Shown here piece by piece: positions 2,259-55,616 of a DNA stretch of 64,000 nucleotides. Every line of letters starts with the position of its first letter. The stretch's first letter is position 1. The translations under genes and the position numbers were made by a program. The stretch is from Synechococcales cyanobacterium bin59.metabat.ball.084 (GTDB lineage: Bacteria > Cyanobacteriota > Cyanobacteriia > Cyanobacteriales > Chamaesiphonaceae). The stretch spans positions 1 to 64,000 of the forward strand of contig JAAFHZ010000002.1 of the NCBI GenBank assembly GCA_013297675.1, given 5' to 3'. The notes beneath the pieces are model-generated. The model made no database searches and was not told the origin of the DNA. It saw only the letters and a program-made list of their open reading frames with translations.

Positions 2259-4790
2259 TTAAGACATTAATGTTTTCAACTCCACCTTAACTGGCTCAAT
2301 ATTCCAGATATCTCGGCAATAGTCGCTGATAGATCGATCAGAAGAGAACTTGCCCATCCGCGCCACATTCAAGATCGCCATTTTTGTCCAGTGTTCTTGA
2401 TCGCGGTAAGCCTGACTGGCCTTGTGCTGACAGTCAATATAAGACTGATAATCGGCAAACAAGAAGTAAGGATCATATTTCATCAAGACATCCAGCAAGG
2501 GCTTAAATAGCTCCTTGTCACCATGGGAAAAGAATCCCGAAGCAAGACGATCGATCGCCAGCTTTAGCTCCAAATTAGAATTGTAGTACTTCATGGGCGA
2601 ATAGCCTTGAGCACTCATTTTCTGTACCTCTTGCTCCGTCAAACCAAACAAGAAGAAATTCTCAGCTCCTACTTCCTCGCGGATTTCGATGTTGGCACCA
2701 TCTAAAGTCCCGATCGTCAGTGCGCCGTTCATGGCAAACTTCATGTTGCCAGTCCCCGAGGCTTCCTTACCGGCGGTAGAGATTTGCTCCGATAAATCTG
2801 CTGCTGGATAAACATTTTGGGCAAATTTAACACTGTAGTCTTTCAAGAAAACCACTTTAATTCGATCGCGCACATCGGGGTCACGGTTAACTACATCGGC
2901 TACAGAGTTGATTAATTTAATCATCAGCTTAGCCATGAAGTAACCTGGAGCCGCCTTGCCCGCAAACAGGAAGGTCTGAGGGGTAATATCAATATCAGGA
3001 TTAGCTTTGATCCGGTTGTAGAGAGTAATAATGTACAGCACATTCAAATGTTGACGCTTATACTCATGAATCCGTTTGGCCTGAATATCAAACAACGAAT
3101 GAGGATTAACCTTGACACCATATTGCTCTCCAATATGGGTGGCCAAACTAGTTTTCAGGCCAAGTTTGATTTGCTGCCACTCTTGATGAAACGCTTTATC
3201 GTCAGCGAAGACTTCTAGTTTCTTGAGGTCTTCGAGATTTTTAATCCAGTTGTCGCCAATTTTACTGGTAATTAAATTGGTTAAATTGGGGTTACTCAAC
3301 ACCACAAACCGGCGGGGAGTCACACCATTGGTTTTGTTGCTAAATTTCTCGGGGTAGATTTCGTAGAAATCTCTCAACACATCTTGCTTCAGCAACTCAG
3401 TATGCAGGGCAGCTACACCGTTAATGGCAAAGCTCCCTACGCAAGCTAAGTGTGCCATGCGCACATAGCGACCATTACTTTCATCGATTAGTGACATTCT
3501 GCTGAGTCGATCGGCATCGTCGGGAAATTTCATCCGCACATCAGCCATGAAGTGGTGATTGATTTCATAGATAATTTCCATGTGTCGAGGCAACAGATTG
3601 CCAAACAGCGAAATTGGCCATCTCTCTAATGCTTCTGGCAGAATTGTGTGATTGGTATAAGCAAAAGTCTTTTGGGTAATCGCCCAAGCCTGATCCCACT
3701 TCATGTAGTTCTCATCGATCAGCAGCCGCATGAGTTCAGCGATCGAAACGGCGGGGTGAGTATCGTTTAACTGAATCACGAATTTTTCGTGAAATTGCTC
3801 TAAGGGAATACTTTGGACTTTCATCACTCGGATCATGTCTTGCAATGAACAAGAGACGAAGAAGATCTGCTGAGTGAGGCGTAGCCGCTTGCCCTGATCG
3901 CTGTCGTCGTTGGGGTACAGCACCTTAGAGATATTTTCAGAAACCATCTTTTTATGGACGGCTCCGGCATAGTTACCCGCATTAAAAGCCCCAAAATCAA
4001 AGGACTCGGGTGCTTCTGCCGTCCATAGTCTGAGGGTGTTGGCGGTGTTGGTTTTATAGCCCAAAATTGGGTTGTCGTAGGGTACACCCTTAATTAATTC
4101 AAAGGGAATCCATCTGGCTCGATACTGCCCCTGATCGTCGGTGTAATGGTCAACGTGGCCGCCTAGTTTAACTTCTACCGCCCATTCTGGACGGGCAATT
4201 TCCCAGGGGTTGCCAAATCGTAACCATTTATCGGTACGTTCTACCTGCCAGCCATCGCGGATATCTTGCTCGAAGATCCCAAACTCGTAGCGAATGCCGT
4301 AGCCGATCGAAGGAATTTCGAGGGTCGCCATAGAATCTAGGTAACAGGCTGCCAATCGACCCAAGCCACCATTGCCTAAGCCTGGTTCTTCTTCTTGTTC
4401 CAATAGGGCATCGAGACTTAGCCCCAGGTCAGAGACTGCTGCTTTGGCTTGGTCATAAATACCCAGATTGATCAGGTTATTGCCGAGCTGTGGGCCCATT
4501 AAAAACTCGGCAGAGAGGTAGCAAACTGTCCGGGAGCCGGAGTCGGTGTAGGTAGTCGCAGAACTAATCCAACGCTCTAGCAGTCGATCGCGCACGGTGT
4601 AAGACAATGCCATATAGTAATCGTTGAGGCTGGCTAAAGCTGGAAACTTACCTTGCACGTAGAACAGCTTATTTAGGAAGTCGCGCTTGAGTTCTGCCAC
4701 ACTCGATCCATTGAGAGCATTTGCCGATTGTTTTTGAATTTCTTGGGTTTGCATTGGTCGGTGTTCAACAGAATGGGACAAGGTCATCAC
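2259..4790 (-). CDS. glgP: Glycogen phosphorylase
   Basis: An 843-residue glycogen/starch/maltodextrin phosphorylase, full length for the GT35 family. It releases glucose-1-phosphate from the non-reducing ends of storage glycogen in the cytoplasm. The pyridoxal-phosphate site is intact (EASGTGNMKFAMNGA, with the cofactor-binding Lys), as are the GNGGLGRLAACYLDS block near residue 140 and the KRIHEYKRQ block. The start MMTLSHS gives an N-terminus of ordinary length; there is no signal peptide. It stands alone, with a strong terminator directly downstream and about 250 bases of empty upstream DNA that presumably holds its promoter. No other glycogen gene is adjacent. Confidence 0.97.
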   Translation of the reverse strand: MMTLSHSVEHRPMQTQEIQKQSANALNGSSVAELKRDFLNKLFYVQGKFPALASLNDYYMALSYTVRDRLLERWISSATTYTDSGSRTVCYLSAEFLMGPQLGNNLINLGIYDQAKAAVSDLGLSLDALLEQEEEPGLGNGGLGRLAACYLDSMATLEIPSIGYGIRYEFGIFEQDIRDGWQVERTDKWLRFGNPWEIARPEWAVEVKLGGHVDHYTDDQGQYRARWIPFELIKGVPYDNPILGYKTNTANTLRLWTAEAPESFDFGAFNAGNYAGAVHKKMVSENISKVLYPNDDSDQGKRLRLTQQIFFVSCSLQDMIRVMKVQSIPLEQFHEKFVIQLNDTHPAVSIAELMRLLIDENYMKWDQAWAITQKTFAYTNHTILPEALERWPISLFGNLLPRHMEIIYEINHHFMADVRMKFPDDADRLSRMSLIDESNGRYVRMAHLACVGSFAINGVAALHTELLKQDVLRDFYEIYPEKFSNKTNGVTPRRFVVLSNPNLTNLITSKIGDNWIKNLEDLKKLEVFADDKAFHQEWQQIKLGLKTSLATHIGEQYGVKVNPHSLFDIQAKRIHEYKRQHLNVLYIITLYNRIKANPDIDITPQTFLFAGKAAPGYFMAKLMIKLINSVADVVNRDPDVRDRIKVVFLKDYSVKFAQNVYPAADLSEQISTAGKEASGTGNMKFAMNGALTIGTLDGANIEIREEVGAENFFLFGLTEQEVQKMSAQGYSPMKYYNSNLELKLAIDRLASGFFSHGDKELFKPLLDVLMKYDPYFLFADYQSYIDCQHKASQAYRDQEHWTKMAILNVARMGKFSSDRSISDYCRDIWNIEPVKVELKTLMS

Positions 4791-5036
4791 TACTCGCTAG
4801 AGTCGGTGATACCATCAAGGGTCTCTAAAATTGCATTTTAGTGATTTTAGAAATCCCGACTTTCCATTCTAGGCACATCTGGACAGATGGAAGGTTTTCT
4901 ACACTACTATTTACAAAACGTATGGTTAATTATCAGATCTACAAAGTGTCGGTAAAGTGTCAGGGCGAGCCTTGGTCTGATCAGGCTACTGCCCGATGAT
5001 TGCCGTGGGATAGCACTTTGTGAACGAGATCAGCAC

Positions 5037-39634: not shown

Positions 39635-40981
39635 TTACTTCAGATTCTGCAAACAAAGCTGTCTAAAATCATCGCCCCGCTCCTCAAAACTACGATATTG
39701 ATCGAAGCTAGCGCAGGCCGGAGACAGTAAAACCACCTTAGCTTGATACTGCTGAGCCAACTCAGCCGATCGAGACACTGCCCTAGCCATAGTTTCTACA
39801 ATTTCAAATTGCTCAAATCCTACTGCCTTTAGCTGTTCTGCAAACTGCTCCGCCGCCACTCCAATCAATAGTACCGCTGCCGCTTTTTGTTTAATAACCT
39901 TCATCCAACCCTGATCATCACCTTCTTTAGGATCTCCACCAGCAATCAAAATTGCGGGTGCTTCCACTGCATTTAACCCCACTTCTGCTGCGTCATAATT
40001 GGTGGCCTTACTGTCATTGATGTACTTTACACCCCGATGAGTGCAGATATATTCCAGCCGGTGGCTAACTCCCGAAAAACTGCTGACGGCTCGTTGAATC
40101 GCTTCAGCTTCAACTCCAGCCAATCTGGCCGCAGCCACAGCCATTAATAGGTTTTGACGATTGTGATCTCCGGGCATTTGCAAATCTTTGAGGGGCATAA
40201 TTTGTTCCCCTTGCCACACCACCCAATCATTAGCAATCCAAGTGCCCCATTGGGGGTTAGCGGGCAATCGATCGACTCCTCCTACGCTTGTCCAATGTGC
40301 CTGAGGCCAATCTTTTACTCTGCTGGCTAAGTAAGGATCATCACCGTTTAAAATTTGGATTTCTGAATTTTGCAACAGCTTGGCTTTAATCTCGTAGTAG
40401 TTTTCTAAGGTTTTGTGACGAGCTAAATGATCCGCAGTAAAAGTAGTAAAAACTCCAATCCGGGGCTTTAGGGTACTAATCGACTCTATTTGATAGCTGC
40501 TGATTTCACCAATAATCCACTGGGGCTTTTCAGGCCGCAGGGCAATTTCGCAGGCAGCTAAGCCAATGTTGCCGCAGGCCGGGGCATCGAGTCCTGCTGC
40601 CTGAAAAATCGCGGCAGCGATCGAGGTGACGGTAGTTTTGCCGTTGGTGCCGGTGATGCCCACCCAAGGAATATCTTTTAGCTCTCGCCAAGCCAGCTCC
40701 AGTTCCCCGATCGTCTCGATGCCCATTTCCCGCGCTTTAACCAAGGCCGAAAGATCCCATGGGACACCGGGACTGACGACTACTAGCTGGGTATCGGAGT
40801 TAGGTTGAAAGCTGTCGCCGAGTTTGACGGTGATGTTCAGATCAGAGATTTGCTCCTTGAGCTTCAGGAGGCTCTCGCTTTGCCCTCGATCGCTGATGGT
40901 GACAGCATAGCCCTGCTTTTGTAAAATTTTGGCACCGGCAATGCCCGATCGACCCAGACCAATGATTGTAGAAGCTAGCAT
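39635..40981 (-). CDS. murD: UDP-N-acetylmuramoylalanine--D-glutamate ligase MurD
   Basis: A 448-residue Mur ligase that adds D-Glu to UDP-MurNAc-L-Ala in the cytoplasmic stage of peptidoglycan synthesis. I start it at ATG 40981 ([13 protein letters not shown]), which gives the normal N-terminal Rossmann loop; a GTG at 40990 would add three residues. Other landmarks are [11 protein letters not shown] (ATP loop), FTADHLARH (the Mur ligase Asp-His), SHRLEYI and NDSKATN, IAGGDPKEGD and LSPACASFDQY. The gene is intact. Its first 145 codons plus about 60 upstream bases recur at 48828-49318, so it forms the left arm of the direct repeat that brackets the VirB/TPR island. Confidence 0.95.
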   Translation of the reverse strand: MLASTIIGLGRSGIAGAKILQKQGYAVTISDRGQSESLLKLKEQISDLNITVKLGDSFQPNSDTQLVVVSPGVPWDLSALVKAREMGIETIGELELAWRELKDIPWVGITGTNGKTTVTSIAAAIFQAAGLDAPACGNIGLAACEIALRPEKPQWIIGEISSYQIESISTLKPRIGVFTTFTADHLARHKTLENYYEIKAKLLQNSEIQILNGDDPYLASRVKDWPQAHWTSVGGVDRLPANPQWGTWIANDWVVWQGEQIMPLKDLQMPGDHNRQNLLMAVAAARLAGVEAEAIQRAVSSFSGVSHRLEYICTHRGVKYINDSKATNYDAAEVGLNAVEAPAILIAGGDPKEGDDQGWMKVIKQKAAAVLLIGVAAEQFAEQLKAVGFEQFEIVETMARAVSRSAELAQQYQAKVVLLSPACASFDQYRSFEERGDDFRQLCLQNLK

Positions 40982-41043
40982 ATGCACCACGCGAAAAATA
41001 CCACAATTATCATAGCCGACGAGTTGCCTCTAACGGTAAGTAA
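40546..41043. repeat. Left direct repeat: murD 5' segment
   Basis: This 498-base segment covers the first 145 codons of murD and about 60 bases upstream. It matches 48828-49318 in the same orientation at roughly 96-97 percent by eye. Homology ends near GTAAGTAA at 41043. It marks the left border of the island. Confidence 0.85.
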
Positions 41044-41179
41044 ATAAAACTTTTGGTGGTATTAGATTTTTAAAGTGGAGACAATATGCGGAACCTAATG
41101 CTAATGGCTAAGGATATGATCATTACTGGTGGTGAATTTACTAAAACGACAAAGTTATTTAGTGTTTAGGAATTTTTTT

Positions 41180-41962
41180 ATGGAGTTTACGACGGTGAAA
41201 GATACTGAAAAAGTTAAAAAGTCCAGGAAATTTGGCAAAAGAACGGTGGTTACTACGGTAATGGTGTTGGGTTTTTCGGCGTTTGGGGCAACGAGTGCCA
41301 AAGCGGTAACGTTGCAAGATTTGCAAAAGTTGCTAAGCAATGTTGGAACTGTAATTAATGCAGTAAGCCAAATCACGACTATTGCGGAGAGTTTTTCTAA
41401 CATCATTACCAGTTTTTCTAATATTACTGATGTCAAAAGTCTTACGGGTGCTTTGGGGCAGTTTTCGCCGATTGAAACGATCGGTGCGGCTAATAAGCCT
41501 AGCCCCAATGATCTGGCCGGATTGACTACTGATGGCATTGCTGAAAAAACAATTGCCACTGTGGCATCAAATCAGGTTTTGAGCAAGCCAGCTCAGGAAA
41601 CAACTAAAAAGGTTAAAGATGAACTCCTAAACCTCGATCGAGCCGCAGCGAAGGTGTCTGACCAGGTTTTTGCTGATGCCCGAGATGCCCAAAAATCAAG
41701 TTCTAGTCAAGATGTCTTAAAGCTGATATCTTATCAGCTCAGTGGTCAGGCAGATATTCAGGCTGCTCAAGTAAGGCTACTGGGTTTGCAAAACAACACT
41801 AATCAGGAGCTGCTGACTCAGTTGGCGGCGGCAAATGCGGTGAATGCCAGCAGTGAGTCCCGCAAAATTGCTGAGGAAAGGATGAAGCTAGACCAAAAGA
41901 GGCAAGAGTTAAATTCGCTTATTAAGTCCATGAGTACGAGCTTTACGACGAGTTTCAACTAG
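41180..41962 (+). CDS. Exported protein, VirB5/TrbJ-like (tentative)
   Basis: About 260 residues from ATG 41180; an ATG at 41129 in frame is a less likely start. A basic n-region (KKSRKFGKR) precedes a hydrophobic core (VVTTVMVLGFSAFGATS) with an AKA cleavage site, a clear Sec signal peptide. The mature protein is helical with heptad-like Leu/Ile/Val spacing (LQDLQKLLSNVGTVINAVSQITTIAESF...), Asn/Ser-rich middle parts and a C-terminal coiled coil (RKIAEERMKLDQKRQELNSL). This resembles the minor-pilus VirB5/TrbJ proteins of type IV secretion, which is consistent with the VirB6-like gene that follows, but sequence similarity is weak. First gene of the island. Confidence 0.6.
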   Translation: MEFTTVKDTEKVKKSRKFGKRTVVTTVMVLGFSAFGATSAKAVTLQDLQKLLSNVGTVINAVSQITTIAESFSNIITSFSNITDVKSLTGALGQFSPIETIGAANKPSPNDLAGLTTDGIAEKTIATVASNQVLSKPAQETTKKVKDELLNLDRAAAKVSDQVFADARDAQKSSSSQDVLKLISYQLSGQADIQAAQVRLLGLQNNTNQELLTQLAAANAVNASSESRKIAEERMKLDQKRQELNSLIKSMSTSFTTSFN

Positions 41963-41975
41963 CTTATTTTGCTAT

Positions 41976-42014
41976 GGCAGGAGAGTTAAGCTTTAAAGAA
42001 GCAGCTCTCCTGTC
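41976..42014 (+). terminator. Hairpin after the VirB5-like gene
   Basis: GGCAGGAGAG pairs with CTCTCCTGTC (41976-41985 with 42005-42014; one G-U pair) around a 19-base loop, 14 bases after the stop. A weak T-rich stretch follows. It may terminate or attenuate transcription before the next genes. Confidence 0.5.
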
Positions 42015-42108
42015 GTAAAGTTTTACCCCATCCTAAATTGAGGCTTATTGGTGTTTTTGGAGCCTTATTAGGGCAATTTAGATATGTCGTTAGTGTAAGG
42101 TATATCCC

Positions 42109-42243
42109 ATGAACTCATTAATAAATCTTATAGATGCTACTACATCAGAAAAGATGACTTTGATAATGAGGCGGCTCAACATATTTTTCATAGTTTTTGG
42201 CATATTCATGTTTTGCTGGGCATGGATGCTCACCAGCCCGTAA
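42109..42243 (+). CDS. Small 44-residue single-span membrane protein
   Basis: A short gene between the VirB5-like and VirB6-like genes, on the same strand. ATG 42109 is preceded by an AAGG about nine bases upstream. The peptide has a charged N-terminal half (residues 1-22, with SEKMTLIMRRL) and a strongly hydrophobic C-terminal half (IFFIVFGIFMFCWAWML), ending in TAA at 42241. The layout fits a small one-span inner membrane protein with the N-terminus inside. Small hydrophobic subunits (VirB2, VirB3, VirB7 types) commonly sit among type IV secretion genes, but I see no specific family match. Coding status needs expression or comparative support. Confidence 0.5.
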   Translation: MNSLINLIDATTSEKMTLIMRRLNIFFIVFGIFMFCWAWMLTSP

Positions 42244-42353
42244 AGTCTTCCCACCAGTCTATTCTGACCAAAGCATGATTTTCTTGTCAGGTCGATGAGA
42301 GCAAATTTGATTACAGACTGCAACTAGGTGTACTACTATTTTTTGGAGATTTG

Positions 42354-43544
42354 ATGATGAATAACCATGTTTTATTGGCCTATGATTTTGGGGTGTTGGT
42401 CAGTGACTTATTTGCTCCGCCCAAGCCGCCGACTGACCCTGCACCAAAAGCGCTTCAGGAGCTGTGGTTGGTGGCGATGAATGGCAATTTGTATAAGTTA
42501 GTCATCAGTATTGGTATTTTAATCGCCGTCTTTGCCGTAGGATTTTGGTGTACAAAGTTTTATCTAGCGATCGAAGATGGTGGTTTGAGACCAGCTCTGA
42601 GAGAAACGGTGTTCCCACTAATTTTGGTGGTGCTGTTTGCTAACGGTGGCGGCAATATGCGCAATGTAACTTTGGGCGCTAGGGATATAATGAATAATGT
42701 CAATAGTTCGGTAAACAGTGTGATTGATGCAGATGTGAGCATTCGATCAGCTACCCAAGCCCTAAGCAATAATATTCTTTCTCAGAGTATTATCGGTGCT
42801 ATGTATCGACAATGTATGGCTTCGGCTGATCTCAATAAAATAAAGAGCTGCGCTGATGCGACCAGGATTCAGATTAATGCTTATACGGGTGGTGCTGCTC
42901 CGGCGCTGCAAGTGAGCAGTAATGAGAAGTACCAGGAGCAGTTGATAGAGTTTGCACAAAAAATGAAGGCGAGAAATGAAGCTCGGTATAAGCAGGTTGT
43001 CGATACGGCAAACGGAAGTAATCGACCAGACAACATAAATAATCCTATTTCAGCCAACCCATCAGAGAAAAAAGCAGATTCTAACATCAGTGTGCTAGAC
43101 TCCTCATATTTCGAGAATGACCAAGCTTTAGAAGGCATTACTAAGACAATCATGAGCTTCAGGATGGCTTTTATTTATATTGTGGAAATAATGATGATCA
43201 TCACTGCTTTGGTTGGTCCGATATTTTTAGGGCTTTCATTATTTCCGGTGGGTACTAAGCCGTTAATCGCTTGGGGAGTTTCATTTTTGTCTTTAGGGTT
43301 TTGTAAAATTTGTTATACGTTAATATCGGGGCTGTCCTCGATCGCCTTCGTCTATGCAGGCCCTGACAACATAGATGCTGCGACTGTAGCGGTTGTGTTA
43401 GGAATACTGTCACCAGTATTATCCTTTAGTATTGCTTCGGGTTCAGGAATTAATGCTTTAAATAATATTTCTCAATCCGCACAAAATGCTGGTATTAAAA
43501 ATGGTCTTGGTTACTACACCCCTAATAATTTTAATGATAAATGA
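42354..43544 (+). CDS. Polytopic membrane protein, VirB6/TrbL-like (tentative)
   Basis: A 396-residue protein, started at ATG 42354 because GGAG lies six bases upstream; a TTG at 42351 is too close to it. Two membrane segments (about residues 46-67 and 85-99) are followed by a large polar loop of about 165 residues with Cys154 and Cys166, then three more segments (272-298, 303-335, 342-362). The run of GPIFLGLSLFP followed by a conserved small-residue helix is typical of VirB6/TrbL inner-membrane channel subunits of type IV secretion. The last 105 residues are repeated as fragments at 44470, 46413 and 47637 and in part at 48788. It is the only full-length copy. Confidence 0.6.
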   Translation: MMNNHVLLAYDFGVLVSDLFAPPKPPTDPAPKALQELWLVAMNGNLYKLVISIGILIAVFAVGFWCTKFYLAIEDGGLRPALRETVFPLILVVLFANGGGNMRNVTLGARDIMNNVNSSVNSVIDADVSIRSATQALSNNILSQSIIGAMYRQCMASADLNKIKSCADATRIQINAYTGGAAPALQVSSNEKYQEQLIEFAQKMKARNEARYKQVVDTANGSNRPDNINNPISANPSEKKADSNISVLDSSYFENDQALEGITKTIMSFRMAFIYIVEIMMIITALVGPIFLGLSLFPVGTKPLIAWGVSFLSLGFCKICYTLISGLSSIAFVYAGPDNIDAATVAVVLGILSPVLSFSIASGSGINALNNISQSAQNAGIKNGLGYYTPNNFNDK

Positions 43545-44422
43545 TAATGCTTGTGATAAAATTAGGGTGCATGTGACTTTCTATAAAGGAAATCATATGC
43601 CTTGATTTTTCATTAATATTAACAAATAGATCTAATCTTTATTTTCAGAAAGATCATATCCACTCCAAACACGTAGCTTTTCAAAAACTTTTACCTTTAT
43701 AAATCTGATTCAAAATTATGCTGGAAACCAATTCACTTGTAATAGGACTAATGGTATTACTCTGTTCCTCTAACATGGCAGAAGCAGCAACTATCAACAC
43801 AAATTTGAATAAGAGTTCTGAAAAGATTTTATTAGCTCAATTTGGCACAACCCCCACTGATAATCAAAGACAACAGGAGACGTTTAATAGGGGTTTAGAC
43901 CACCATCAAAACTCTTTGCGTATCCAGAAACAACGGCAACAGCAAGCAGAATATAATCGGCAGCAAAACGAACTTGACAGACAGAGAAGAATTTTGGAAG
44001 CTCAAGAGGCGGCACTTAACTCAATACCAGATCTGGCAAGAAAAAAAGACTATTTAGCTCTTGGCAGAGCATGGCGCATCTTAGAAGTATGGGATAGAAG
44101 CTTAGACGCTGCTAATAAAGCCATTGCAGCTTATCCAGACATTGTGGGTGGATACCTTTTGCGAGCATCTTTAAGAGAAAGACTTAATGATATATCGGGT
44201 GCTATAGCTGATTACGATCAAGCAATCGAAATTGAGCCAGATCGTCATATTTATTATGAGTCCCGTGGCAGGTTGAAAAAGAGTTTTGACCGAAACGGGG
44301 CAATTCAAGATTTTAGAATGGCTATGAAAATAGTAAAAGTAGATAATCGATTTAATCTAATTAGAGATTCTGAGTTGAGAATTCTCGCCAAAGAGCTGAG
44401 ATCATTGGGGGCAACAGAATAA
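43222..44422. repeat. Cassette repeat unit I, copy 1 (virB6-like 3' end + spacer + TPR gene)
   Basis: About 1.2 kb that recurs at 46413-47614. The virB6-like 3' end, the entire noncoding spacer (starting TGATAATGCTTGTGATAAAAT after the stop) and the TPR gene (MLETNSLVIGL start) all match closely. A paralogous TPR gene alone would not explain the matching spacer. Confidence 0.85.
43718..44422 (+). CDS. Exported TPR protein, array member 1
   Basis: A 234-residue member of a family of five paralogues. It has a signal peptide (VIGLMVLLCSSNMAEA, cut after AEA) with a Cys that does not fit a standard lipobox. A Gln/Arg/Asn-rich stretch (residues 45-95) may be coiled coil. The C-terminal 130 residues contain three TPR-like helix pairs: [64 protein letters not shown] and [30 protein letters not shown] proteins bind other proteins; the partner is unknown. 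It directly follows the VirB6-like gene and is nearly identical to array member 4. Confidence 0.82.
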   Translation: MLETNSLVIGLMVLLCSSNMAEAATINTNLNKSSEKILLAQFGTTPTDNQRQQETFNRGLDHHQNSLRIQKQRQQQAEYNRQQNELDRQRRILEAQEAALNSIPDLARKKDYLALGRAWRILEVWDRSLDAANKAIAAYPDIVGGYLLRASLRERLNDISGAIADYDQAIEIEPDRHIYYESRGRLKKSFDRNGAIQDFRMAMKIVKVDNRFNLIRDSELRILAKELRSLGATE

Positions 44423-44469
44423 TCGATTAAGTGTTATGTTGATTCCGACGCTTCCGAGGATTCCGCTTT

Positions 44470-44768
44470 TTCTGGTCAGTACGAAACCTCTGATTGCCTG
44501 TGGTGTTTAATTTTTGTCTTTAGGGTTTTATAAGATTTGTTATACACTGATATCGGGTTTGTTCTCGATCGCCTTTGTATATGCAGGTCCAGACAACATA
44601 GATGCTTCAACTGTTGCAGTAGTTCTAGGATTGCTTTCACCAGTACTAGCTTTTAGCATTGCTTCAAGTTCAGGAATAAACGCCCTAAACAGTGCTATCG
44701 GGCCTGCGCAAGTTGGCGGTATTAATTTTGGACTGGGATATTCCTCACCAAATAATAATCAAAAGTAA
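44470..44768 (+). pseudogene. virB6-like 3' fragment A
   Basis: Homology to the last 100 codons of the VirB6-like gene starts near the codon for VGTKPL and runs to the stop. It has an in-frame TAA shortly after the start (GV*FLSLG), so only the downstream part (from about 44514) is open. It follows array member 1 by about 50 bases. The sequence is diverged: SSGINALNSAIGPAQVGG instead of SGINALNNISQSAQNAG. Confidence 0.8.
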
Positions 44769-44775
44769 TGATGTA

Positions 44776-44867
44776 TAGCAGTTCCGGCTCGGATAAAGTG
44801 GATTTATGCACCTAAAAATCTCTCTGAGCTAAAGATCACTTTTGCTTTATTCAACCCGGAACTGTTA
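44776..44867. mobile_element. MITE-like element with TA target duplication
   Basis: An 88-base element (44778-44865) begins GCAGTTCCGG and ends CCGGAACTGT, flanked on both sides by TA. The terminal inverted repeat extends about 20 bases with mismatches: CAGTTCCGG.T.G.ATAAAG on both arms. Small size, terminal repeats, TA flanks and no coding capacity fit a miniature element of the IS630/mariner type. The corresponding spacers after the full virB6-like gene and fragment B lack it. Confidence 0.6.
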
Positions 44868-44933
44868 CAATCAACTAATCATCCTGATTTGAACACAATT
44901 AGAAGGCCAACCGTAATATTCTTCAAATAAGCC

Positions 44934-45596
44934 ATGAAAGTAAAAATAAGCTCATTTGTTTGTGGACTAGTAGTATTAACCTCCTCCGTAGCACAAGCAA
45001 CGTCTATCAAATTAAAATCTGAGAGAGCAACAAATAATCTTTATGCTCAAAGAGGACACCATCAGCGCGAACAAGATTATATTGGATATCGTCGCTGGGA
45101 AGAAGCAGTCAGACAGCAGGCAGAATATAATCGACAACAAAATGAGCTAGCCAGACTGGAAAGAATTAGACAAGCTAGAGAATCAGCTCTCAACTCAATA
45201 CCAGAACTAGAAAACAAAAAAGACTATTTAGCTCTTGGTCAAGCGTGGCGCACTTTAGAAGAATGGGACAAAAGTTTAGATGCTGCCAATAAAGCCATTG
45301 CAGCTTATCCAAACGTTGTGGGTGGATACACTTTGCGAGCATCTTTGAGAAAAAGACTCAATGATATATTAGGTACTTTAGCTGATTATGATCGAGCAAT
45401 TGAAATTGAGCCAAATTTCCATGGCTATTACCAGCTACGCGGAGAACTAAAAAAAAGCTTTGATCGAAATGGAGCGATTCAAGATTTCCGCATGGCTATG
45501 AAGGTAATAAGAACTGACAATCGTTATAATCTCATTAGAGACAGAAGGTTAAATGAATTTGCTAAAGAGCTTCAGTCTCTTGGTGCAACAGAATAA
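44934..45596 (+). CDS. Exported TPR protein, array member 2
   Basis: A 220-residue paralogue with a signal peptide (ISSFVCGLVVLTSSVAQA, cut after AQA). After a short variable segment (res 22-55, with HHQREQDYIGYRRWEEAV) it has the family's [54 protein letters not shown] stretch and three TPR-like repeats up to ELQSLGATE. The Tyr-rich, charged N-terminal part differs from members 1 and 4, while the C-terminal 140 residues are almost the same in all members. Fragment A and a small mobile element separate it from member 1. Its neighbour member 3 begins 75 bases downstream with no virB6-like fragment between. Confidence 0.82.
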   Translation: MKVKISSFVCGLVVLTSSVAQATSIKLKSERATNNLYAQRGHHQREQDYIGYRRWEEAVRQQAEYNRQQNELARLERIRQARESALNSIPELENKKDYLALGQAWRTLEEWDKSLDAANKAIAAYPNVVGGYTLRASLRKRLNDILGTLADYDRAIEIEPNFHGYYQLRGELKKSFDRNGAIQDFRMAMKVIRTDNRYNLIRDRRLNEFAKELQSLGATE

Positions 45597-45671
45597 TCAG
45601 TAGTACTACAAAAATTATCTAGCCTAAATTTAAGAGTCGTAAAACGCAATCATAATATTTTTCAATAAACC

Positions 45672-46385
45672 ATGAAAGTAATAATTAGCTCATTCGCTTT
45701 TGGACTAGTGGTATTTACTTCCTCAACAACACAAGCAACGCCCATCAGATTAAAATCTGATGTAAATTTGTACAACAGCTTTAGAGAATTTTTACTAGTT
45801 CAATTTGGCACAACCCCCACATCTAATCAAAGACAACAAGAGGCGTTCAACAGAGATTCAAACAATTATCAAGGTTGGTTGTATTACCAGCAACAACAGA
45901 GGCAGCAAGCCGAATATAATCGTCAGCAGAACGAGCTAGCCAGACTGGAAAGAATTAGACAAGCTAGGGAGTCAGCTCTCAACTCAATACCAGAACTAGA
46001 AAGTAAAAAAGACTATTTAGCTCTTGGTCAAGCGTGGCGCACTTTAGAAGAATGGGACAGAAGTTTAAATGCTGCCAATAAAGCCATTGCAGCTTATCCA
46101 AACGTTGTAGGTGGATACACTCTTAGAGCATCCCTAAGAGCAAGACTTAATGATGTGACAGGTGCGATCACTGACTATAATCAAGCCATTGCAATTAAGC
46201 CATATTATTATGGATACTATCAACTTCGAGGCGAACTGAAAAAGAGCTTAGATCAAAATGGAGCAATTCAAGATTTTAGGACGGCTATGAAAGTTTTAAG
46301 AGTTGATAATCGTTATAACCTAATCAGAGACTCAGAGTTAAAAATTCTTGCCAAAGAACTACAATCCTTAGGAGCTACAGAGTAG
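45672..46385 (+). CDS. Exported TPR protein, array member 3
   Basis: A 237-residue paralogue. The signal peptide (ISSFAFGLVVFTSSTTQA) resembles that of member 2, but the following segment (VQFGTTPTSNQRQQEAFNRDSNN, about 42-64) resembles members 1 and 4. It thus looks like a mosaic of two family types. The C-terminal part has the family repeats: [64 protein letters not shown] and [28 protein letters not shown]. No virB6-like fragment precedes it. As with the others, the mature protein should lie in the periplasm or cell exterior; its ligand is unknown. Confidence 0.82.
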   Translation: MKVIISSFAFGLVVFTSSTTQATPIRLKSDVNLYNSFREFLLVQFGTTPTSNQRQQEAFNRDSNNYQGWLYYQQQQRQQAEYNRQQNELARLERIRQARESALNSIPELESKKDYLALGQAWRTLEEWDRSLNAANKAIAAYPNVVGGYTLRASLRARLNDVTGAITDYNQAIAIKPYYYGYYQLRGELKKSLDQNGAIQDFRTAMKVLRVDNRYNLIRDSELKILAKELQSLGATE

Positions 46386-46412
46386 TAGATTAAATATTTG
46401 ATTGATTTGATG

Positions 46413-46732
46413 TCTTAGGGCTTTCACTGTTTTCAGTGGGTACTAAACCGTTGATTGCTTGGGAAAGTTCATTTTTGTCTTTAGATTTTTGTAAGATTTG
46501 TTATACGTTGATATCGGGTTTGTCCTCGATCGCCTTCGTCTATGCAGGCCCCGATAACATAGATGCTGCGACTGTAGCAGTTGTGTTAGGAGTACTGTCA
46601 CCAGTATTATCCTTTAGCATTGCTTCGGGTTCAGGAATTAATGCTTTAAATAATATTTCTCAATCCGCACAAAATGCTGGTATTAAAAATGGTCTTGGTT
46701 ACTACACCCCTAATAATTTCAATGATAAATGA
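46413..46732 (+). pseudogene. virB6-like 3' fragment B
   Basis: The fragment begins near the codons for GLSLF and runs to the stop codon with the same ending as the full gene (GYYTPNNFNDK). Its last 85 residues differ from the full-length protein by about one residue, showing recent duplication or gene conversion. An ORF without an upstream stop is present from GTG 46436, but there is no N-terminal two thirds of the protein and no clear start signal. Confidence 0.82.
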
Positions 46733-46909
46733 TAATGCTTGTGATAAAATCAAGTAAAGGGTGCATGTGATTTTTTTTACAGAAAGTCACATGTCTTGAT
46801 TTTTCATTAAAATCAACAAATAGATCCGATCTTTATTTTCAGAAAGTCATATGCACTCCAAACACATAACTTTTTAAAACTTTTACCTTTGTAAATTTAA
46901 TTCAAAATT

Positions 46910-47614
46910 ATGCTAGAAACCAATTCACTTGTAATAGGACTAATAGTATTACTCTGTTCCTCTAATATGGCAGAAGCAGCAACTATCAACACAAATTTGA
47001 ATAAGGGTTCTGAAAAGATTTTATTAGCTCAATTTGGCACAACGCCCACTGATAATCAAAGACAACAGGAGACGTTTAATAGGGGTTTAGGCCACCATCA
47101 AAATTCTTTGCGTATCCAGAAACAACAGCAACAGCGAGCAGAATATAATCGGCTGCAAAATGAACTCGCCAGACTGGAAAGAATCAGGCAAGCTAAAGAG
47201 TCAGCCCTTAACTCAATACCAGAACTAGAGCAAAAAAAAGACTATTTAGCTCTTGGCCAAGCATGGCGTACTTTAGAAGAATGGGATAAAAGTTTAGATG
47301 CTGCCAATAAAGCCATAGCAGCTTATCCAAATGTTGTGGGCGGTTACACTTTACGAGCATCTTTGAGAAAAAGATTCAATGATATATTAGGTGCAATCTC
47401 TGATTATGATCAAGCAATCGCAATTGAGCCAAATTTTCATGGGTATTACCGGCTTCGCGGTAAACTAAAAAAGAGTTTTGACCGAAATGGTGCAATTCAA
47501 GATTTTAGGATGGCTATGAAAGTGATAAGAATTGATAATCGCTTTAATCTTATTAGAGAATCTGAACTAAAAATTTTCGCCCAGGAATTGAGATCTTTAG
47601 ACGCAACAGAATAG
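46910..47614 (+). CDS. Exported TPR protein, array member 4
   Basis: A 234-residue near-copy of member 1, with the same signal peptide (VIGLIVLLCSSNMAEA) and the same QFGTTPTDNQRQQETFNRGL segment. In its middle it diverges: member 1 reads NELDRQRRILEAQEAALNSIPDLARKKDY, while this one has the standard family stretch [29 protein letters not shown]. It seems that one of the two has undergone conversion with another member. Three TPR-like repeats follow. It ends ELRSLDATE instead of the usual SLGATE. Confidence 0.82.
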   Translation: MLETNSLVIGLIVLLCSSNMAEAATINTNLNKGSEKILLAQFGTTPTDNQRQQETFNRGLGHHQNSLRIQKQQQQRAEYNRLQNELARLERIRQAKESALNSIPELEQKKDYLALGQAWRTLEEWDKSLDAANKAIAAYPNVVGGYTLRASLRKRFNDILGAISDYDQAIAIEPNFHGYYRLRGKLKKSFDRNGAIQDFRMAMKVIRIDNRFNLIRESELKIFAQELRSLDATE

Positions 47615-47636
47615 CTAATTCAAAGTTTAGTTAATC

Positions 47637-47956
47637 CAATATCTTTGGGGCTTTCTCTATTTTTGCTGGGTATTAAACCTCTAATTGCTTAGGATGTTTC
47701 ATTTTTATCTTTAGGGTTTTGTAAGATTTGTTATATGCTGATATCGGGTTTGTCCTCGATCGCCTTCGTATACGCAGGTCCTGACAACATAGATGCTTCC
47801 ACTGTGGCTGTGGTATTAGGAATACTATCGCCGGTACTAGCTTTTAGTATTGCCGCTAATTCAGGTATAAATGCTTTGAACAGTGTTTCTCAATCTGCCC
47901 AGGCAGGTGGAATAGGAACTGGATTAATTCATTATGGCTCTAGGAACGGCCTATGA
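47637..47956 (+). pseudogene. virB6-like 3' fragment C
   Basis: Homology begins near the codons for PIFLGLSLF and runs to the end. The Trp codon of LIAWGVSF is a TAG stop here (LIA*DVSF), so only 47735-47956 could be read. The last 20 residues differ from other copies (SAQAGGIGTGLIHYGSRNGL). It is diverged from the intact gene and is not a recent copy. Confidence 0.8.
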
Positions 47957-48074
47957 AATTATTCACTTACTAAACGAAGAAGATAGGTTTTATGTAAAAT
48001 GGAGTAACTGATAGTTAGAAATTAAATATGGCATTTCCAAAGAAACAGAAATAACTCATTCATAGGTAATAGTA

Positions 48075-48719
48075 ATGTTTAAAGCTACTCACAATAATCT
48101 TTCATTGTTTTTCGGGTTATCAGTATATATGCTATTAGCCCCAAGCATTTCAATGGCAACTACTAAACTTTATCAGCAGTCAAAAGGAATTTTTTATGCC
48201 CAGTCATATCATGATCTTTGGTCGGAACTCAGAGAATTTAATCAGCGGCAACGGGAGCGGGAAAAGGAGCTTGCTAGACTGGAAAGAATTAGGCAGGCTA
48301 AAGAGTCAGCCATTAACTCAATACCAGAACTAGAAAGCAAAAAAGACTATTTAGCTCTTGGTCAAGCATGGCGCACATTAGAAGAATGGGACAAAAGTTT
48401 AGATGCTGCCAATAAAGCCATTGCAGCTTATCCAAACGTTGTAGGTGGATACACTTTACGAGCATCTTTGAGAAAAAGACTCAATGATATATCAGGTACT
48501 TTAGCTGATTATGATCGAGCAATTGAAATTGAGCCAAATTTTCATGGCTATTATGAGATTCGTGGTGTTTTGAAAAAAAGTTTTGACCGAAACGGGGCAA
48601 TTCAAGATTTTAGAATGGCTATGAAAATAGTAAGGGTTGATAATCGTTATAATCTGATTAGAGATTCAGAGTTAAAAAACCTTGCCAAAGAACTCCAATC
48701 TTTAGGAGCTACAGAGTAG
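48075..48719 (+). CDS. Exported TPR protein, array member 5
   Basis: A 214-residue paralogue and the last one in the array. Its signal peptide is the most diverged ([20 protein letters not shown]), and the spacer between signal and repeats is shortened ([44 protein letters not shown]). The three TPR-like repeats and the ELQSLGATE ending match the other members. It is followed within 70 bases by fragment D of the virB6-like gene and then by the truncated murD, so the array is cut off here. Confidence 0.82.
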
Positions 48720-48787
48720 TTGAGTTCAAATTAGAGACTCCAGAATCATGATTTAAGCCCATCATAAATATTTCGGAGATTCCGTTT

Positions 48788-48830
48788 TTTCTGGTGGGTA
48801 CGAAACCTCTGATTGCCGGTGTTTCATTTT
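48788..48830 (+). pseudogene. virB6-like fragment D joined to murD fragment
   Basis: Only the start of the repeated fragment is present, encoding VGTKPLIA and GVSF; then at about 48828 the sequence switches to murD (TTTCGCAGGCAGCT). The bases TTTC occur in both sources at the switch, so the junction shows microhomology. It marks the right border of the island. Confidence 0.75.
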
Positions 48831-49257
48831 CGCAGGCAGCTAAACCAATGTTGCCGCACGCCGGGGCATCGAGTCCCGCCGCCTGAAAAATCGCGGCAGC
48901 GATCGAGGTGACGGTAGTTTTGCCGTTGGTGCCAGTGATGCCCACCCAAGGAATATCTTTTAGCTCTCGCCAAGCCAGCTCCCCGATCGTCTCGATGCCC
49001 ATTTCCCGCGCTTTAACTAAGGCCGAAAGATCCCACGGGACACCGGGACTGACGACTACTAGTTGGATGTCCGGGCTAGGTTGAAAGCTGTCGCCGAGTT
49101 TGACGGTGATGTTCAAGTCAGAGATTTGCTCCTTGAGCTTCAGGAGGCTCTCGCTCTGTCCTCGATCGCTGATGGTGACGGCATAGCCCTGCTTTTGTAA
49201 AATTTTGGCACCGGCAATGCCCGATCGACCCAGACCAATGATTGTAGAAGCTAGCAC
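48828..49257 (-). pseudogene. Truncated murD duplicate (first ~143 codons)
   Basis: The N-terminal third of MurD, nearly identical to the intact gene, ends abruptly after GNIGLAACE at the junction with virB6-like fragment D. Differences include SPDI for NSDT, loss of two codons (ETIGELAW for ETIGELELAW), and GTG in place of the ATG start. It lacks the Asp-His and substrate domains, so it cannot be a working ligase. The reading frame remains open, showing that the duplication is recent. Confidence 0.9.
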
Positions 49258-49318
49258 ATGCACCACGCGAAAAATACCACAATTATCATAGCCGACGAGT
49301 TGCCTTTGGCAGTAAGTA
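48828..49318. repeat. Right direct repeat: murD 5' segment
   Basis: About 491 bases matching 40546-41043 in the same orientation. Homology includes the upstream sequence with GACGAGTTGCCT and ends near CAGTAAGTAA at 49318. Beyond it begins the fba upstream region, which probably used to lie next to the intact murD. Confidence 0.85.
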
Positions 49319-54153: not shown

Positions 54154-54810
54154 ATGCCAACCATCATGGTTACAGCGATCGTCTCACCAGAAAAGCTCCA
54201 AGTGCCAGCAGGTGCTGTGATCATGATGCAGGCCACCTGGCAAGACTATCAACAATTAATGGAACAGCGAGGCGATGGATCTAATCCTCGTATCAAATAT
54301 CGTCAGGACTCAGTGCTACTCATGTCACCAATGGCTGCTCATGGTCGCGATGCCAACTTATTGGCCGATATAGCTAAAGCCCTTCTAGATTACCAAGGTC
54401 GTGAATATGACTCGTTCACACCCGTCACCATGGAACTACCCGAAGAAAGCGGCATCGAGCCAGATTATTGCTTTTACATCGATAACTGGACAGCCGTTTC
54501 TGGTAAACAGCGCATTGACTGGCAGCAAGATCCACCACCCGATTTAGTAATTGAGGTAGATGTCACCAGCTATACAGACATCACAGATTATTTGCCTTTC
54601 AAGGTGCCCGAAATTTGGCTGTGGAAAAAACAGCAGCTCAAAATCTATCAGTTACAGAGCGAAGAGTACATTTTGCAAGAGCGCAGCCGTTTTGCCCCTT
54701 CGATCAATCTAGCGGCAGTGATGGAAACTGCGGTGCAAGAGACTTATGATCGAAACTCCAGTTTCGCCATCCGCAATCTTCAAAGGCGTTTGATGACTGG
54801 AATGATATGA
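54154..54810 (+). CDS. Uma2 family (DUF820) putative nuclease
   Basis: A 218-residue Uma2/DUF820 protein of a third subgroup. The core reads MQATWQDYQQLMEQRG near the N-terminus, IKYRQDSVLLMSPMAAHGRD, GIEPDYCFYI (Asp), PDLVIEVDVTSYTDI (Glu), KVPEIWLWKKQQLKIYQL. The Lys-containing helix of the PD-(D/E)XK pattern is weaker than in the other copies. ATG 54154 or 54166 could be the start. It is convergent with the next Uma2 gene, and only five bases separate the two stop codons. The two belong to different subgroups, so they are not a simple tandem duplication. Confidence 0.83.
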   Translation: MPTIMVTAIVSPEKLQVPAGAVIMMQATWQDYQQLMEQRGDGSNPRIKYRQDSVLLMSPMAAHGRDANLLADIAKALLDYQGREYDSFTPVTMELPEESGIEPDYCFYIDNWTAVSGKQRIDWQQDPPPDLVIEVDVTSYTDITDYLPFKVPEIWLWKKQQLKIYQLQSEEYILQERSRFAPSINLAAVMETAVQETYDRNSSFAIRNLQRRLMTGMI

Positions 54811-54815
54811 ACCAT

Positions 54816-55616
54816 CTATTTATCAGCGGGTAATTCACCCAGTCGCTGCTGATACAATGCCACCTGCAATTCCAATTCCTTTACTCGTTCTGTCTCCTGA
54901 TCGGCTCGTGCCGCTTCCTCTCTGGCCTTTGCGGCTGCTAGCTCAGCTCTTTGATCTGCTTGAATGGTTAGTTCTTTTTGTTCTTCTAGAGCAATACTTT
55001 GTGCTTCTAACGCAACACTTTGTTCTTCTAGAGCAATATTTAATTCCTCCAATGGCAACAATCTTTCACCGTTATCCAATCGATAAAAAGCAATGATCTT
55101 ATTTTCCACCACCAATTGGAGTTGAAGAGATTCACTTTGATTATTGGCGATCGGAACATAAACTTGATCGCCCTGCAATCGATAGCCCCGCAGTTTTTCC
55201 GGAATCCATTCACCCCGAGGATCAAACTGCCAATACTCAGTAACACCAAGACCTTCATAGAGATTTTTCTTTTCCACATCGTCTTTAGTCTGAGTACCGG
55301 GTGAGGTCATTTCAAAGATCACAGAGGGTACTTGGCCTTCTTCCCAAATTTTATAGTTATCTCTTCCCCCAGGGGCAACATTAAAAATCACCATCACATC
55401 TGGAGCCACCCGTAGTCGCGGAAATCCTTGGGCATAATATAAAAACTGATCAGCCAAAACGGTTGCTTGCTGTCCTTTTAAGTGATGTAGCAGCATTGCT
55501 AGGGTGGTCATGATGACATATAGATGATCGTAAGATTCAGCCAAGGGTTCTCCATCGGAACTAGGGTAGATAATTTCGGGATGCGAAATCTGATTGATTA
55601 GTAATATGGCAGTCAT
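54816..55616 (-). CDS. Uma2 family (DUF820) putative nuclease with C-terminal coiled coil
   Basis: A 266-residue paralogue of the protein at 1137-1898. Shared blocks are GEPLAESYDHLYVIM, LKGQQATVLADQFLYYAQG, VAPDVMVIFNVAPGGRDNYKIWEEG, VIFEMTSPGTQTKDDVEKKNLYEGLGVTEYWQFDP (split as core Asp, Glu and Lys elements) and EKLRGYRL. The C-terminal 65 residues are a heptad-like EEQSVALEAQSIALEEQ repeat continuing as a Glu/Ala-rich coiled coil. Its coiled coil is longer than that of the other copy. Function unknown; the coiled coil suggests oligomers or partner binding. The gene for biotin carboxylase lies divergently, 187 bases away. Confidence 0.85.
   Translation of the reverse strand: MTAILLINQISHPEIIYPSSDGEPLAESYDHLYVIMTTLAMLLHHLKGQQATVLADQFLYYAQGFPRLRVAPDVMVIFNVAPGGRDNYKIWEEGQVPSVIFEMTSPGTQTKDDVEKKNLYEGLGVTEYWQFDPRGEWIPEKLRGYRLQGDQVYVPIANNQSESLQLQLVVENKIIAFYRLDNGERLLPLEELNIALEEQSVALEAQSIALEEQKELTIQADQRAELAAAKAREEAARADQETERVKELELQVALYQQRLGELPADK

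Follow-up and report, generated by a model that had tools for sequence, protein, structure and literature searches.

Start-less 3′ gene fragments that share a conserved boundary and lie beside intact partner genes are known from the orphan cdiA-CT/cdiI arrays of contact-dependent growth inhibition (CDI) and from the mafB-CT/mafI loci of Neisseria (PMC3150448, PMC4287609). Among conjugation systems, entry-exclusion genes usually adjoin their donor target (PMC8923210), and the VirB6-type protein TraG is the target of TraS, through a mechanism that needs further analysis (PMC12624023). Here we describe a locus in Synechococcales cyanobacterium bin59.metabat.ball.084 (a stretch of 64,000 nucleotides (nt) of contig JAAFHZ010000002.1, hereafter the window), at which one complete gene for a VirB6-like channel protein of a type IV secretion system (T4SS) is trailed by start-less virB6 3′ fragments and by five complete genes for exported tetratricopeptide repeat (TPR) proteins. 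Toxin systems provide the known examples of orphan 3′ cassettes paired with partner genes; here the same layout is found on a T4SS channel protein. By analogy with those systems, we give an even chance to the reading that the locus is a CDI/Maf-like orphan array of specificity cassettes, in which the partner would probably be an entry-exclusion protein.

The likeness to CDI and Maf loci is one of architecture: an intact gene comes first, start-less 3′ fragments follow, each has an intact partner gene, and recombination appears to carry the partner along. Several of the fragments also start at or next to a conserved motif, L(A/G)LS.FP.G. Unlike in those loci, what varies is the tail of an inner-membrane channel protein of a T4SS and not a toxin domain (none is found there), the partner is exported, the tails are related to each other and toxic activity is not expected. 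With EexN (R388/IncN), TrbK (RP4) and TraS-TraG (F), the array shares an exported or small accessory gene that lies beside a VirB6-type gene and is missing in many related systems; it differs from them in its many partner copies and in the duplication of the donor-side determinant as 3′ fragments. We know of no exclusion locus that takes the form of a cassette array, and a literature search turned up none.

The IncI shufflon (pilV, Rci) also stores alternative 3′ ends of a conjugation gene alongside it. A shufflon is made of inverted segments and a site-specific recombinase and is not known to have a partner gene, whereas the repeats of the array are all direct; the window repeat scan found no inverted repeats of at least 40 nt and the open reading frames (ORFs) scanned around the array at 29–58 kb include no recombinase, which rules a shufflon out. 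In the Trw system of Bartonella (trwL, trwJ-trwI-trwH), genes of the virB5/virB6 region are multiplied, diversified and recombined, as here, but whole genes are repeated inside the operon, and no scattered virB6 3′ fragments with matched partners are described (PMC2883598).

Cassette layout and recurrence

A 4.64-Mb draft genome (G000) contains the window on its contig C112. Re-examined by ORF scan and repeat scan, the array lies where the first-pass annotation had placed it, on the forward strand throughout. A gene for a virB5-like exported protein (41129..41962, likely ATG start near 41180) precedes the virB6-like gene (42351..43544, 397 amino acids (aa)), which the ORF scan, in agreement with that annotation, finds to be the only complete one of the array. 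The five TPR genes likewise have ORFs at the starts first given. TPR1 (43718..44422, with a Pfam TPR match), the partner of the current VirB6 tail, is followed by fragment F1 (44454..44771; one stop, tail NSAIGPAQVGGINFGLGYSSPNNNQK), TPR2 (44934..45596), TPR3 (45672..46385), F2 (46415..46732; open, its tail the same as in the intact gene), TPR4 (46910..47614; N-terminal half like TPR1, TPR domain like TPR2 and TPR5), F3 (47645..47956; two stops, tail NSVSQSAQAGGIGTGLIHYGSRNGL), TPR5 (48075..48719) and the 51-nt remnant F4 (48771..48821), which is severed at its junction with a truncated murD copy, murD′. Four virB6 fragments interspersed among the TPR genes had been described; three of these are indeed pieces of ~300 nt, but the fourth is only ~51 nt long and joined to the truncated murD, and no fragment separates TPR2 from TPR3.

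Repeat families D1/D2/D8 comprise the five TPR copies, at 82–88% identity, and the virB6 3′ copies at 43227 (within the intact gene), 44454, 46415, 47645 and 48771. Chance or artefact as the origin of the array is ruled out by the E-values of the three long fragments F1–F3 (4e-59, 9e-46 and 2e-39) and by recurrence on other contigs and in a congener, and phage origin was rejected after searches of viral contigs found no relative.

By its position, the window gene is VirB6-like. The name rests on gene context. Direct TrbL/VirB6 sequence evidence is weak: Pfam and NCBIfam give nothing for the VirB5-like and VirB6-like proteins of the window, Pfam TrbL (PF04610) matches one plasmid homologue at E=0.022 and not the window protein, and hhalign against R388 TrwI aligns the transmembrane (TM) core, but at 2% probability. 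The PDB holds no relative of the VirB6-like protein, and its AlphaFold model has a predicted local distance difference test score (pLDDT) of 38 and is unusable. Homologues are found in 92 records of cyanobacterial plasmids (48 typed as conjugative) and at chromosomal or contig loci; in ~30 cyanobacterial T4SS loci they are placed after the virB5-position gene and before virB8, with TrbI/VirB10 and VirD4 coming next. For the window copy the virB5-like gene is the only T4SS neighbour; its product shares 37% identity with the virB5-position protein of contig C108 and 34% with that of contig C68, and the C108 protein is encoded between the virB4 3′ end and virB6. TPR is the sole Pfam/NCBIfam match of the TPR partners.

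Homologous loci with other cassette numbers, which the first-pass annotation had suggested seeking, are present in the same genome and in its closest relative and sole congener in the comparison, Synechococcales cyanobacterium GL140_1 (G001; JANYHM01), with another partner family. Scans of genome contigs gave only two loci. G000 has five further virB6-like genes, on C75 (C75A and C75B), C108, C87 and C68/C82; the genes that follow them encode a family of ~100-aa exported proteins in place of TPR proteins. This family has 13 members in the two genomes (11 aligned), has no match in Pfam or in plasmids, and was found in this genus only among samples of the order and phylum; the window TPR partners have no close relative in G001 or elsewhere in G000. 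On C87, C68 and C75, virB6 3′ fragments again stand before or after the small exported genes. In G001, contig C82 reads virB2-B3-B4-B5-B6-small-small-fragment, beside the T4SS genes themselves, and contig C48, which probably adjoins it, reads tail fragment-small-fragment-virB8-B10-B9-...-virD4; the blocks virB2-B3-B4-B5-B6 and virB8-B10-B9-D4 (L041/L042) give the virB6-like gene its T4SS operon context. The unit of a virB6 3′ end and an exported gene is thus seen again at independent loci, its partners coming from two unrelated families. Because virB6 and virB8 are only 0–160 bp apart at ~30 other cyanobacterial loci, with neither exported gene nor fragment between them, the array is an addition to the 3′ end of virB6 that is specific to this genus, and the partner is an accessory, not a core part, of the T4SS.

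Linked history of tails and partners

Within the window, unit 1 (the virB6 3′ end and TPR1) and unit 4 (F2 and TPR4) share a block that starts at virB6 codon ~310 and takes in the tail and spacer as well as the TPR1 signal peptide with its variable N-terminus (43300..43962 on the forward strand; ~46490-47155 in unit 4), with 92–98% identity in coding stretches from ~43300 and ~87% in the spacer between tail and TPR gene. At 43962, within the conserved TPR domain, identity falls to ~80% (max-chi2, p≤0.0002), which is the level among all TPR domains of the array, and past this point TPR4 looks like TPR2 and TPR5 and not like TPR1. Nonsynonymous divergence (dN) of the N-terminal segment is 0.03 for TPR1/TPR4 versus 0.40–1.13 for other pairs; in the TPR domain it is 0.09–0.17 across all pairs. 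The breakpoint bears out the earlier impression of variable, mosaic N-termini, and the block comes close to the exchanged unit then proposed, a virB6 tail together with its TPR partner.

The small-protein loci tell of the same linkage. Across nine tail/small-protein units, clustering by tail core and by partner gives the same five clusters ({C75A, C75f, C108}, {C75B, G1, G1f} and three singletons); the chance of an identical partition is 1 of 840 labelings, a post hoc figure because the grouping was spotted by eye ahead of the test. The VirB6 bodies do not follow these classes. C75A and C75B have a body distance of 0.02, yet their tails and partners differ, and the tail and partner of C75B match those of the other species (G001) at a body distance of 0.39. 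Tail and partner therefore move together, independent of the body. In Mantel tests the 20-aa tail core correlates with the partner (r=0.40, p=0.001), the full-length tail does so weakly (r=0.30, p=0.03), and a partial test with the six full-length units does not reach significance (p=0.09); the post hoc class match is a stronger statement than the full-length tests. Sequence comparison thus supports cassette exchange as history, that is, as past exchange only.

Selection and a possible exclusion function

Tallied by hand, all partner ORFs are intact (18/18), and the virB6 fragments, nine of which entered the test of this tally, are mostly broken by stops, frameshifts or truncation. More than one partner can follow a tail (TPR2 and TPR3 in the window, two in L039 and two in L041), and all of these are intact. 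The ratio of nonsynonymous to synonymous divergence (dN/dS) is 0.10–0.28 in the TPR domains. The C-terminal repeats, first described as nearly identical, are so at the protein level (dN ~0.1), but their synonymous divergence of 0.6–1.06 marks them as old copies kept by selection.

Downstream of their stops, F1, F2 and F3 have a ratio of nonsynonymous to synonymous differences (pN/pS) of 0.12–0.13 among themselves (p<1e-7), compared with 0.14–0.34 for pairs of functional genes over the same 3′ stretch; their first 22 codons are looser (0.28–0.43). Judged by these ratios, F1–F3 do not behave as dead duplicates: either these 3′ ends ceased to be expressed only recently, or recombination still takes their 3′ parts through the expressed gene. 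The idea that the fragments are translated as mini-proteins was not upheld, as no convincing start signal was seen by eye and promoter matches do not exceed chance expectation.

These values also bear on a plainer account, in which a virB6 3′ end and a TPR gene were joined once by an illegitimate event and multiplied by unequal crossing over, with passive virB6 pieces and selection on TPR dosage or on nothing at all. Similar spacers in units 1, 3 and 4 and fragments that set in at a common virB6 codon fit one founding junction, and repeats in direct order only speak for it as well. We nonetheless consider it unlikely, since fragment pairs with a synonymous difference (pS) of ~0.5 keep the low ratios given above where dead pieces should drift towards 1, tails vary by cassette and, over different loci and species, agree with the partner classes, and the architecture repeats with an unrelated partner.

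The trailing cassettes had first been likened to silent ones, but the TPR genes are complete, encode signal peptides and are under purifying selection, so that CDI/Maf orphan modules offer a better analogy than silent pilin copies. Applied to the array, this analogy would make each cassette a virB6 3′ end (the last TM region and a variable tail of ~25–45 aa) with an exported partner gene matched to the tail. A new cassette would come in through homologous recombination at the conserved TM region of virB6 and, for the TPR family, at the conserved TPR domain as well; the intact virB6 would thereby acquire another tail and another partner, and the older start-less 3′ end would be left downstream. 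Displaced partner genes would remain complete, so the cell could keep its protection against old specificities, each partner acting in the recipient envelope to block a T4SS whose VirB6 bears the matching tail (entry exclusion, or immunity). Such a scheme would involve expression of the partners, direct recognition between tail and partner, exclusion activity and switching in the present day. That exclusion specificity is modular and switchable in this sense, with VirB6 tail and cognate exclusion protein exchanged together from a library of displaced cassettes and old proteins serving as an immunity stockpile, is a tentative proposal that we hold to be possible rather than probable.

We propose an exclusion protein because the partner is an exported accessory protein (signal peptides read by eye) encoded directly after virB6 3′ ends, in keeping with the usual place of exclusion genes next to their donor targets, with the gene order virB5-eexN-virB6-virB8 of R388, in which the exclusion gene adjoins virB6, and with the TraG/TraS precedent. 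Several points weigh against this proposal. Neither partner family has a sequence or fold tie to known exclusion proteins (EexN, TrbK or TraS), as checked in Pfam and NCBIfam for the TPR proteins and in Pfam for the small ones, and a model of a small partner (pLDDT 60) has no PDB match below E=1. No obvious lipobox is seen in either partner, unlike in TrbK and EexN. The classical VirB6 topology would place the tail in the cytoplasm, while the partner is exported, so that direct contact between them is not obvious. Linkage alone co-inherits an adjacent tail and partner. Only two genomes carry the system, and in G000 the orphan array stands apart from the other T4SS genes (virB8-virD4, located on C46).

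The partner could instead be a variable working part of the T4SS (an adhesin, a pilus-tip protein or a VirB7-like subunit) that fits the VirB6 tail, the array then serving antigenic or receptor variation. A gene between virB6 and virB8 stands in the place of virB7, a partner gene can overlap or abut virB6 (L038, 4367 versus a stop at 4374), and Bartonella Trw amplifies virB2 and virB5-virB6-virB7 genes, trwL and trwJ-trwI-trwH being the parallel (PMC2883598). On the other side, ~30 related T4SS are without any such gene, several intact partners per tail fit a stockpile of immunity better than one matched subunit, and Bartonella repeats whole genes and not 3′ fragments; this account, too, seems improbable to us. 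We think it very unlikely that the partner is immunity to a toxic T4SS cargo, or is itself that cargo, with the VirB6 tail hitch-hiking as a recombination arm. In favour of this account, the locus is laid out in the manner of CDI/Maf orphan modules (PMC3150448, PMC4287609), and linkage alone could yield the match between tail and partner; the virB6, TPR and small proteins, however, belong to no Pfam toxin family (toxins elsewhere in the genome were not searched for), and the varying part is only the tail of 25–45 aa.

If entry exclusion is the function, swappable tail/partner pairs would serve to recognise conjugation partners and not toxins alone. The proposal makes a concrete claim on where exclusion specificity sits in VirB6, a subject of continuing T4SS work, brings in two families of exported proteins whose genetic partner is defined, and suggests a way of changing who may exchange DNA with whom.

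Breakpoints, flanks and neighbouring elements

F2, F3 and a C68 fragment (L036, 7947) start no more than a few nt from the codon for the L(A/G)LS.FP.G motif, and the L042 fragment starts one codon away; this is also where F1 and F4 diverge, and the C87 and C68f fragments start farther upstream. Fragment starts recur at the same virB6 codon. Neither of two findings that would speak against such an array, a gene pair without homologues in this arrangement or fragments in random decay, was encountered, because homologous arrays exist and the fragments are not randomly decayed. The spacers from TPR stop to fragment are short and alike in units 1, 3 and 4, and the window fragments are compatible with one founding join and subsequent homologous exchange. 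Site-specific recombination at LALSMFPVG, considered because breakpoints recur, is not supported, as the L041 breakpoint is an insertion of a miniature inverted-repeat transposable element (MITE) and the remainder fit a founding join and homologous recombination.

The array is flanked by a duplication that lies outside the coordinates considered in the first-pass annotation and was overlooked there. Intact murD (39635..40990, reverse strand) stands on the left, and on the right murD′ (48825..49266, reverse strand), a truncated second copy of the murD 5′ end, is 96% identical to it. The duplicated sequence includes the region upstream of murD and is in direct orientation on both sides (501 bp, 94%; 40543-41035/48825-49310), and the array therefore arrived through a rearrangement that copied murD 5′ DNA. 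The right copy ends after 149 codons, fused to F4 with only a few nt of microhomology, and each copy is about equally distant (88–89%) from the murD of G001. A pre-insertion site could not be recovered from this congener, which has another gene upstream of its murD.

Degenerate MITE copies of ~110 bp lie within the array at 43565-43673 and 46759-46862, with 18-bp terminal inverted repeats (GGGTGCGTGTGACTTTCT). The element has 20 terminal matches in the genome, or about 11–12 copies, and one copy splits a virB6 fragment in G001 (L041, ~32-141).

Other T4SS pieces are scattered over G000. C46 (L102) carries a virB8-virB10-virB9-virD4 block separate from virB6, with virB8 after a divergent helicase gene, and C151 (L104) has a second virD4 and a virB10 3′ fragment. 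Between virB4 and virB5 of L039, a 143-aa protein (4491-4922, reverse strand) resembles only the N-terminal TM part of VirB6 (27%). At L095 (4940-6271), a lone member of the small family is convergent with an unrelated exported TPR gene, and no virB6 piece was found there. Two adjacent Uma2-type (PF05685) nuclease-like genes lie on opposite strands at 54154-55616 of the window. Pieces of virB4 occur at both ends of contig C108 (L039), and on C84 (L094) a truncated virB4 5′ end follows a small exported gene; these pieces suggest tandem or partial duplication of virB4-virB5-virB6, with assembly breaks at the repeats.

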